The notes under the pieces were generated by a model. That model worked only from the letters and a program-made list of their open reading frames with translations. It ran no database searches and had not been told where the DNA came from. Both the position numbers and the translations under genes were made by a program. Positions 37,703-43,700 of a stretch of 64,000 nt of DNA are shown here, one piece after another (within the stretch, counting starts at the first letter, position 1; each line of letters begins with the position of its first letter). Source of the stretch: Nymphaea colorata (taxonomy: Eukaryota > Streptophyta > Magnoliopsida > Nymphaeales > Nymphaeaceae); the NCBI RefSeq assembly GCF_008831285.2, contig NC_045140.1, positions 1,529,528 to 1,593,527 of the forward strand. The letters are read 5' to 3'.

Positions 37703-40700
37703 CTAGCCAAACAAACTTACCGTGCCTAAAAGCTGATCTCCTTGATGTAGCTCTTTCTTGCGCAACTCTTCTAATGGATCTGGACTCTTCATAACTCTTC
37801 GCAAACGCCTGAAACATGCACGAAAAAAAAGAATCAAGAGGAGACTTCAACAGAGATCAGCTATTGGAAGAAAAGCACTACGAAACATAATAATAAAAAG
37901 ACAAATAAATTAAAATAACATAAGTTCCCGTAATGTGTGAAAAATAATACCTATCCTGAGCATGTTGAGCAGGAAAGGTTGGCATAAATTCTTTGGACTT
38001 GGGAGGAGGAAATTCACGGAACCAGTCATGATTAAGAGCTTCCTCTGCTGTTATCCGCTGCATACAAAAAGCAAACAGCAAACTTCCAGTGCCTCTGGCC
38101 TAATAGAGAACAAAGTTAATTTAACAATTACAGAGTTATTTCCTTGGTAGCTACCTTTTCAGGATCGTAAGTAAGAAGCCTGTTCAGTAGGTCAAATCCA
38201 GCATCTGAGAGTGCCGGCTTTCCAGAGAAAGAAGCGGCTGTGAACTTTGGGAACTTCTCACGGAGCCTGTTGTACCTGAAGAAAAACATTAGTGATTACA
38301 GTTAACATAATCAAACAACATTCACCAAACTGGAAGTACCACGATGGCAAGACTAGAAAGCCTGACCACAATCACCCATCTTCCTGGGAAAACAGTATAT
38401 GGGAAAAAAATCAGAACATAAATGGTATTCAACAAACTAAAATATGCTACACAATGTACCAATCACTCTCAGCGATCTGACTAGAGCAAAATTTCTTTTA
38501 TTTGGGAAAAAGTTACTTACGGTTGTTTCACATAGTTGCACTTCACGCCCGGCAATTTAATATAACCTGGCCATATCTTTTCATTTGGGGTGCCCAGTAT
38601 CCTGAATATCTACATTTATTTAAAAAAATGTTAAAATTAAATCGACTGACCAAACGAGAGAATATAGAAAAATTTTTAATAAAGAAACGAAAGAAACATG
38701 AACGAATTGAATAAGAAAATATTAAACTATGCAGAACAGGAAATACTTTGTCTAGCTGGTCTATTTCATTTTTCCCACAGAACAATGGTTCCTTGGCCAA
38801 AAGTTCAGCCATTATGCATCCCAAAGACCACATATCTATAGCTGTTGAGTACAATTTCGATCCCAGCAGAAGTTCTGGGGCCCTGTAGTCACAATACATA
38901 AAAGAAACTATAAGAATGCGGGGTAAGATAGATGCACTCACATGCAACAAGGTCAAACAGAAGAATAAACTGACTTGAAACAATCAACCCGAACACTAGT
39001 TTGCAACTTGCAACTATACAGATGAGATATGGTTCCACATTTTGATCCAAATACTTCCATAATTGGTCTACGAGAACCATAGAGGAGGAAGGAGATCAAG
39101 AAAGAGCTAAATATGTTCTAACAATAGGCTTTTCTATTTTTTATTCTATACACATTTATCATCTAAGGCATTGTTGAAAAGGAAAAAAAAAATCCTATCC
39201 AAATAATGTTTCACCTTGTTCTTTAAGAATGCCTATCCTTGCATCCTAATATTGTGTCTTTTTATCAAATTAACCTTAAAATGAGGAATGTACTAATTTC
39301 AACACCAAAATATGAACAAGTTATTTTTTATATTGACCAGGCTGAGAACACAGTATCCAGATCAGCAGAGTTGTGTCAGTTGACACGACCAAACTTTGAA
39401 CATTGGCTGGTACTTGGTAGTAAACCATCAATGCAAAAGAGTTCCAATCCCAACAGCAGCAACCAGAAATGACAGTTGCACTCATACAGGAATTAGTCCC
39501 AATATCTTAAGGGTTTATGGCACAGACACCCATGCTGAATTTGCATTTCCAAAGGCATCCTTCCATTTCACCACGGTATGAAGAAATGTCACAAGCCCAG
39601 ATAAGCTTCTATATTTGTATATTACCAAGTAAGCTATTTATTAAATGGTATGGACAGCAGATTATTGGTAACACTATTTTTGGGAAATGTAAATGAAGTC
39701 CAGGATATATTCAAAGATACAGAAGCTATAACAGTCGTCGGTTCGTACAATGATAGCCTTAGGACCTAGTGTGGAAAATCCTGACAAATCAGCCGACTGG
39801 TCCAAGTAGTCGATTGAGTCGGTTATTGACCAACTTTTGTTTCAAGCAAGTGCTTAGTTGATCAAACTAGCCAATTATTCAGTTCAGCTGTTGGTCGAAC
39901 TGACTTGTTCCGAATCTATATATAAATATATCAGATCCACATGCATTTTTTGCACAAATATATATGTTTTGCATTTATTTCCAAAGAAATACATGTGTAA
40001 ATCCATGTATTCATTTATTAAAAGTCAATCAACTTGGACCAACTAGTCTTTTTAGGCAATGTTATCCGTATCGTACGATACGGACGCGTATCATACGATA
40101 CACTATTTAAATACGATACGCGTATGTATCGTACGCGTATCGTACGTATCGTACGATACGGGTATCACACGATACGGGGGTGAAATTAAAAAAGGGGCCC
40201 GAGGGCCCCTTTTTTTGCGTCTTATTTTGAAACGGACACTCCTCTCTCTCTCTCTTTCCTTGTTTCTCAACGCTGCTAGAGACGTGGGAGGGAGAGATTT
40301 TTCTCCATTGCATCAAGATTTGCCGGTGAAGAAGCTTCCTTTCTCATTGTGGGGAGTTTTGGGACGGTGGGAAGCTTGGAGAAAGAGGGTTTTTTGGTTT
40401 TTAACACCAAGAAGGTAAGAAATAAGTCATTTTTGCCGTTGAATCGTTTATTTGTCTTATTTCCTACATTTATTTGTATGTTTTTACTTGTTTTGTGAAG
40501 ATATAATGTCGGATCCTGCATGGCAAAGGTGTACAAGGGTGAATCCCAAAGATAGATTAAGAGTTAAATGCAATTATTGTAAGCAAATCATATCAGGAGG
40601 GATCTCTCGCCTTAAACACCATATTGCTGGTACACACAGCGATGTGGCTCAATGCAATGGCTCCCAAGAGAACCCATTGCCAGCGTATGTAAAGCACCAG

Positions 40701-43700
40701 TGTCAGGAGCTTCTTGATGCAGTGAAAGCAAGTAGGATTGAAAAGGAAATGGAAGATGCAGAGGAAGGATATGAGGACCCACATGAAGAGGAAGAAAGTG
40801 AAGGTGAAGATGTTCAGCTTGAAGAAGAAGATGTTGGTGTCAGTTTGGGAACAGCTAAAGGGAAAGGCATCATGAGTGGAGGTGGTTCTTCTGCAACTGC
40901 AACCAGAAAAAGAAGAGGTGCAAATATAAGTTCAGTTTCACGAGGACGTGGCAGGAGTCATAGTGGTCGTACTGGTGGTGGTAGAGTACCTACTATGAGG
41001 TCGAGCAATATGTCTGATTCGATCAAGAATTTTTTTCCCAATTATACTGTTGTTGGTGCTCAGCCTGAGATTCGTATAGCCATGCAATCAAAAGATATTG
41101 TTGAAGCAGCAGATGAAACCATAGGAAGGTGGTTCTATGATGCATCCGTTCCCTTCAATGCAGCAAACTCTTATCATTATCAGCCATTAATCTCTAACAA
41201 TTTGTTAAATTGTTCTCTTGTTAGGCAACTACAAACAACATCTATGAGGAAGCATCACAATCAATATGATCCTATCTTCATTGACCATTTTGATATATCA
41301 GATTCTTGGGTTGAAGAAGAACCATCTACAATACTTGATGAGGACGATCTTGATTTTTTGAACGTTGAAGGAGCAGCAGAGATTATTGATGAAGGAGAGG
41401 CTGGGGGAGAAAAATGGAATGTTGGTGACATTTCATTTGCAACAAAGGGGATAGAAGAAGCAGTTAATGAAGAAAATGAAGATGATGATGAAGAATGAAG
41501 ATGATGATGCAAATGACGATTGACGATGCTTTTTGTTTTGAGTTTTGAAAACTATGTCAATATGTTCTGAGTTTTGACTTCTGAACTTATGAATTGTGAT
41601 GTAATTGAATACTCTTAGGTTGCTTAGTATGTTATTTTGTTTTTTGAATGTTTGATTTCTTATTTTGGAATGTCTTGTTCATATGCATACTTCATAGGTC
41701 ATACTTCATATACATGAATGATGAATGTTCCTTTAAATACATTTTTCTTGAATTTTTCTGATTTTTACTAATTTTTTCGGATTTTTTTAGAATTTTTCTG
41801 ATTTTTTTCTATTTTTTTATAAATTTTTAATATTTTTTACAAATTAAAAAATTAATTTTACGATATGCTACGATACATTTACGATACGGCGTATAGGTCG
41901 GTCCGACCGATACTACCGCAGTGATAACATTGTTTTTAGGGTCTTGAGTCTTGAACACCCTTATTCTAACTTCCTATTTTGACAAGTAGGTAGCCCACTG
42001 ATTAGGTGCCGGAGGGACACGACCCATGGATAAAGCCCTACTCTAGGTATTTTAAAGTTCGTATAGATATATAAATTAAAGGAGTATCACATATCTGTGA
42101 CTCTGTCTCCGTTCGTATAGATATAGAAATTATTAAATAGGAGTATTACATGTCTGTCACCAGTCAAAGGAATATCAAAGCTGATCTCCTACATCACTTT
42201 CTTGATTGATTATGGAAATACCCTTAATTTTTTCAAATTCTAGCAGTTGAATGTGACTTGTGAATGTATACGCCTATCAACAAAAAGACTCAAGGATTCT
42301 CACAAAAATGTTAATGGAAAAGAAAAACATAACAGAAAACATTTATATAACAAAAAGAAAAATAAGGGAAATTCAACCAGTCTATAGCTGAAGTAAAGCA
42401 TACCGATACCACAATGTGACCACCAACTGTGTGTAAGGTCTCAGAGGACTTCCATACTGGCGAGCCAAACCAAAATCACAAATTTTCAGCTCCCCACGAT
42501 TATTCAGCAGAAGATTTGACGTCTTCAAATCCCTGCAGAATTGAAGAAGCAAACCAGCCATACAAACCTCAGGTACCGAGAACAATAGTTCTGACACAAC
42601 ATACCCAAATGTTGTACATGAACGATAATAGAGTACCTGTGGAGCACCCAATTATCATGAAGATACTTAATACCCTCCAAAAGCTGAAGCATAAGGCACT
42701 TGACTTCACTCTGACTGAAAGGTTGCTTCAGTGATTCCATCAACCCCTTAAGATCATGGTCCATGTACTCCATTACCATAAAAATGCTATCAAGGTTGCT
42801 CCCAACGACAACTTCTTTCACATCAACTATGGAAGGATGGTGAAACGACAAAAGGATATTTATCTCCCTTAAAGAAGTGAGCGGAAATCCTTCTCTTTCC
42901 TTCTCCATCTTAACCTTCTTCAAAGCCACAATCTCGCCAGTCTTCTTGTTTTTGGCTCTGTAGACCACACCATATGTGCCCTCATCTATCCTATTTAATC
43001 TCTCAAACTCATCTACACTCCTACAGCCCTGCAACATATTGATCTTCTTAGGCAATGAAGTCTCCAAAGCAGCGACAAGCGCATCCTTTTTATCACCTTT
43101 CCCACTGTTATCATCGACGTCAACTTCTTCATCAGTATTAGACCCTGATCCAGAACCCTGGTCATCAATCTTTCCTTCGACTATTCTTTTCTCCCCATCA
43201 ATCTCCATCCGATCACTTACATCAGACACTTTCTTGCTTCGGTCCTCATCATCTTCTGTTTCCTTTTCGTGACTACTGATGTACACATTAGCATTTCCCT
43301 CCCCGTCAGAACCAGATGCTGACCTCACTCTGTCACTGCCCGTGTCATCTTCCCTAAGCTCACCAAGTTCGGGGCTCGTGTCCCCCTCTTTATCAGCTAT
43401 TTCTTCGCTCTTTTTCCTTTTCACCGCCCGCTCTTCATCATACACGTCCTCACCATCAAACCCATTGTCATTCGCCCATCTTGATGCTGACAGAACTCTC
43501 ATTGGCGCATAATCGTCATCCTCATCTTCATCGTTCCGTGAAGGCGATGATTTTTCGGGCACAACATGCCCGTATTTGTCCGCCGAACCATTCTCCACTA
43601 GACGGGCGCTTGCCAACTCGTCTACATAAGACTTAGTAGGAACTTTCTCGTCCACATCCCAAATAATTGGAGAATACTTCCTCTTCTTCAGTTGTACCGG

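Follow-up and report, generated by a model that had tools for sequence, protein, structure and literature searches.

The window analysed here, a 64,000-nucleotide stretch of the Nymphaea colorata genome, contains a CDK-like protein kinase gene with a hAT transposon inserted in an intron. The hAT element is 1,876 bp long (window positions 40057-41932, plus strand) and, on a direct check of the sequence, its 10-bp TIRs and 8-bp TSD proved perfect, exactly as a preliminary description of this DNA had reported (Table 1). The antisense placement within a kinase intron that it gave was borne out as well, with Pkinase matches in two exons, the first coding one and the one that follows the host intron; the small exon directly upstream was read from the sequence, the Pkinase scan covering the other two. 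The preliminary description called the host gene CDKG, a name that fits its PLTSLRE motif. Around 19 kb away, a partial duplication (62195-62822) is 97.1% identical to the kinase segment at 42321-42940, which comprises the end of the first exon, the second exon and the start of the intron.

Table 1 Window coordinates of the element, its parts and the host intron
Feature	Position	Strand	Basis
Host intron (3,521 bp) in the CDK-like protein kinase gene, element antisense	38883-42403	-	Splice-site sequence
TSD, left copy TTTTTAGG	40049-40056		Identical to 41933-41940
Left TIR CAATGTTATC	40057-40066	+	Exact inverse of 41923-41932
Left subterminal cluster, 9 GTATCG/CGATAC motifs, presumed transposase-binding repeats	40068-40175		Motif count
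Putative 5'-UTR intron (AAG/GTAAGA ... TGTGAAG/ATATAATG)	40415-40500	+	Splice-site sequence
330-codon ORF made of an N-terminal BED finger, a linker derived from an intron and the acidic last exon	40506-41498	+	Translation, Pfam
First coding exon, 5' part kept: codons 1-226 and two bases of 227, BED finger	40506-41185	+	Aligned to relatives, zf-BED
Deletion junction with a single unmatched base, either filler or a substitution	41186		Alignment to L009
3' end of last intron, acceptor TTGTTAG, now codons 228-239	41187-41224	+	Comparison with relatives
Last coding exon, 90-aa acidic tail and stop	41225-41498	+	Same frame as in L040
Right subterminal cluster, 3 CGATAC motifs	41871-41913		Motif count
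Right TIR GATAACATTG	41923-41932	-	Exact inverse of 40057-40066
TSD, right copy TTTTTAGG	41933-41940		Identical to 40049-40056

Inside the TIRs, the element carries 12 CGATAC/GTATCG motifs, all close to its ends, compared with a mean of 0.4 and a maximum of 3 in shuffled sequences. By analogy with other hATs, these subterminal repeats may bind the transposase. Among 35 copies of the family, the first 200 bp hold 5-17 such motifs (9 in the window copy) and the right end 3-7, with the window copy, at 3, tied for the fewest. The donor AAG/GTAAGA of the putative 5'-UTR intron is present in 28 of the 34 copies with a located start word, the window copy counted in.

A search of the 64-kb window recovered no second copy of the element, the matches with E up to 1 being short and mostly simple sequence. 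Other repeats do occur in the window. A 172-bp MITE-like element (49813-49984) is hAT-like, with CAGGGGCGGAG as its inverted ends and a flanking 8-bp TSD, CGACAAAG, that is perfect; a 462-bp stretch (7572-8033) with 10-bp inverted ends TAGGGATGTT, at which 7 of 8 flanking bases match, is a possible hAT MITE; and the stretch at 59520-60137 is tandemly repeated, Tandem Repeats Finder reporting a 167-bp unit at 59824-60136.

We then turned to the whole genome (407.8 Mb in 783 contigs, with the window on contig C3), in which the best 40 of 1,209 candidates were scored and 72 matches were listed. Forty of the listed matches, the window copy among them, extend over most of the element's left part, and the 39 other best-matching copies were contained in the 37 regions that we took for analysis. 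Full-length relatives with the same ends, which the preliminary description had suggested seeking, thus exist in this genome. The same description held that the window copy is internally deleted, and the comparison agrees: 38 of the 39 copies retain the transposase core, with about 1.5 kb separating their left and right parts, and in the window copy a single base separates the two. The right part is truncated in a few family copies, and in L014 the right match picks up only at element position 1228. The remaining copy, L045 (2,236 bp, locus positions 687-2922), carries an independent deletion with other breakpoints.

Exact TIRs delimited 34 of the 39 copies; the other five (L011, L013, L014, L019 and L042) lack a perfect end and were excluded. 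The TIRs of the window copy are the same in all 34, these relatives having been picked by exact TIR. Apart from L045, the delimited copies measure 3,358-3,595 bp (33 of 34). Their TSDs are perfect in 28 cases, have one mismatch in five and four mismatches in one (L009). An 8-bp TSD, short shared TIRs and a dimerisation region, the last found in full-length L040 and gone from the window copy, place the family in the hAT superfamily. Outside this genome, relatives were sought in viral, prokaryotic and plasmid DNA; the viral_contigs and genome_contigs collections gave none that was confirmed, and plasmids gave no match. Literature listings on hAT, BED, gap repair, KP and Nymphaea colorata yielded no name for the family.

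The parent transposase gene has three coding exons, which encode a BED finger with DUF659, the hAT dimerisation domain and an acidic tail. In L040, whose splice sites were predicted from sequence, exon A (615 codons) matches zf-BED and DUF659 (E=1.9e-57) and is followed by a 107-nt intron, exon B with Dimer_Tnp_hAT (E=2.3e-14), a second intron of 86 nt and exon C, whose 90 acidic codons have no Pfam match; the coding sum is 774 aa. A strict three-exon test, requiring the start word to be exact, exons A and B to be open and exon C to have 85-95 codons, was passed by 9 of the 34 copies; L021, with a 629-codon frame, failed solely on the exact start word. The two most similar copies are 99.94% identical. 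From these open copies and this identity, we infer that the family has been active recently. Family copies are also nested within each other: inner elements with 8-bp TSDs lie inside another family copy at L012 (3837-7300) and at L018 (3960-7441, locus reverse strand).

Aligned to the family copy L009, the window copy is missing about 1,526 bp. Its first exon aligns to the relatives up to element position 1129, and the left breakpoint falls just before DUF659; the right breakpoint lies in the last intron, 38 nt from the intron end. DUF659 and the whole dimerisation exon are consequently absent. The preliminary description had the transposase core and most of the dimerisation domain removed; the loss of the core stands, but the dimerisation domain is gone entirely. 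Its claim that the deletion joins the N-terminus in frame to the acidic C-terminus also holds, but 38 nt of former intron are read through on the way. Since ORF residues 228-239 are this translated intron remnant, the in-frame join is accidental. No microhomology was seen by inspection at the junction.

The open 330-codon BED ORF itself was recovered as reported. Among 500 Markov-shuffled versions of the element, the longest frame without a stop reached 192 codons. Pfam returned zf-BED as the sole match of the 330-aa product (E=5.9e-06, limit E 10). A PDB search with the ORF gave two matches, which we took as chance on account of their weakness (best E 0.18). With the left breakpoint fixed where it is, 101 of 301 comparable right breakpoints would be joined in frame (34%, about one in three). 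In simulations that placed both breakpoints at random, about 9% of the deletions sparing the BED part joined in frame to the natural stop.

The deletion was found in the window copy alone, which answers the question, raised at the outset, of how many copies carry an identical one. A 30-bp junction pattern allowing at most 3 mismatches occurs at one place in the 408-Mb genome (reversed-pattern control, 0), and the right breakpoint in its undeleted form, searched as a 26-bp pattern, is present at 116 places (57 forward, 59 reverse; control, 0). With a 240-bp junction query, for which the best 40 of 270 candidates were scored, the join is spanned in the window alone, and the 39 other listed matches end at it. 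Because no other copy with the deletion was found, the deleted ORF has no siblings with which to be compared.

We examined substitutions private to the window copy among 35 aligned elements, counting a position where 25 or more other letters were aligned. There are 23. Twelve are coding changes, 2 synonymous and 10 nonsynonymous; one of the synonymous changes sits at the junction and may be filler, in which case the counts are 1 and 10. Under neutrality 75% of the changes should be nonsynonymous, and 10 or more of 12 then arise with a probability of 0.40. Private changes are about as dense in coding positions (12/956) as in other element positions (10/883, p=0.83), and W8R and F36L lie in the BED region. 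The terminal branch of the window copy is 1.8%. Pooling the eight copies of its group in a midpoint-rooted tree (L009, L010, L012 outer, L017, L018 outer, L020, L028 and L045) gave 17 synonymous and 72 nonsynonymous private changes; none of the eight passed the strict three-exon test. The counts of the window copy match what is expected without constraint. Selection on the frame is unsupported, and with 12 changes, a small sample, a weak or recent constraint is possible. The earlier suggestion that the open frame is conserved found no backing in the private changes.

Could the open frame itself be taken as evidence of function? We rejected this, since the frame has a probability of about 0.62 of coming through 12 random substitutions without a stop (in a model of substitutions only, with indels outside it) and 101 of 301 comparable right breakpoints give this frame. 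Some observations count against a frame kept open by chance, among them the figure of about 9% for random placement of both breakpoints. In six of the eight tree-group copies, exon A is interrupted before codon 227, and private gaps of frameshift length (coding and core columns) occur in 10 of the 34 others, whereas the window copy, with a shorter coding span than the others in this comparison, shows none besides the large deletion.

Taken together, the window copy is very probably a non-autonomous, internally deleted copy of the Ds-del type, belonging to a plant hAT family that encodes BED, DUF659 and dimerisation domains and has recently been active. It has an internal deletion relative to longer relatives and keeps both ends, like the Ds-del elements of the maize Ac/Ds system, which PMC3260210 describes as simple internal deletions of an autonomous hAT with the ends kept and an 8-bp TSD. 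It differs in belonging to another hAT family (TIR CAATGTTATC, BED-DUF659 transposase) and in a residual ORF that happens to be open; its assignment to the class is made on sequence, and mobilisation in trans is putative. The lost segment begins shortly before DUF659 and ends within the last intron; it may have gone in faulty repair after excision or in another end-joining event. By chance, the frame runs from the first exon through the 38-nt intron remnant into the last exon. Because both ends remain, the copy may still be recognised as DNA by the transposase of intact copies. The BED-acidic protein, if made, would lack the catalytic and dimerisation domains and would probably be a transient by-product without selective upkeep.

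A more active role would follow if the short BED protein bound the subterminal repeats and blocked the full-length transposase of the family, as a repressor resembling KP of the Drosophila P family. Spread to several copies is typical of KP, and the junction seen here occurs once in the genome. The window copy and KP are both internally deleted, and both ORFs keep a DNA-binding domain without the catalytic part (PMC12393704). The two features by which that paper recognises P-element repressors, an interrupted transposase and a retained DNA-binding domain, are found in the window copy too. It also states that P-element derivatives could occupy transposase sites (PMC12393704), and the protein encoded here could in principle do likewise. 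A target family that looks intact exists, and the isolated BED region of Hermes forms tight complexes with subterminal repeats (PMC10368747). However, KP belongs to another superfamily and is called a repressor in the same paper (PMC12393704), whereas the window deletion is a single copy known from its sequence. The substitutions give no sign of purifying selection, two of them (W8R and F36L) fall within the BED region, and the dimerisation domain is missing, whereas Hermes is modelled, in PMC10368747, as multimerising to gather its BED domains. Our search for literature on truncated or dominant-negative hAT transposases found none. We consider such a repressor very improbable. Still harder to credit is a variant in which the singleton is a newly born repressor that binds the CGATAC repeats and damps the intact copies in trans before having spread. 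The window copy is best described as an ordinary Ds-del-like derivative, for which a repressor role is possible but unsupported.

An effect on the host gene, by which the insertion or an antisense transcript would alter splicing of the kinase intron, is extremely unlikely. The element does lie antisense within the 3,521-bp intron, and its host-sense strand offers two AATAAA motifs; a simple scan of that strand for three strong donor words, however, found 0, and DNA transposons in introns are common in plants. Least credible of all is an element turning into a host gene: the BED ORF is open and precedents exist in DAYSLEEPER (PMC3499209) and in the BED-containing CGG-binding proteins, which PMC8097297 traces to repeated hAT domestications, but the TIRs and TSD are still intact, the linker is an accident of intron sequence, the terminal branch is 1.8%, the substitutions look neutral, and the purifying selection expected on the ORF of a domesticated hAT gene is not seen in this small sample (2 synonymous, 10 nonsynonymous). 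The SLEEPER genes likewise encode hAT-derived proteins with a BED finger, but DAYSLEEPER, as described in PMC3499209, is a host gene with the hAT dimerisation domain, whereas the copy in the window is a transposon, bounded by TIRs and a TSD, and lacks that domain.

Under the reading that we prefer, a Ds-del-like derivative, a functional claim on the window copy matters little. The copy is instead a clear case of how an open, domain-bearing ORF can arise by chance in a transposon deletion derivative, here by way of a translated intron remnant. The family to which it belongs, in which near-identical copies look intact and some elements sit inside others, seems to have been active recently and could be of interest to researchers working on mobile hAT elements.
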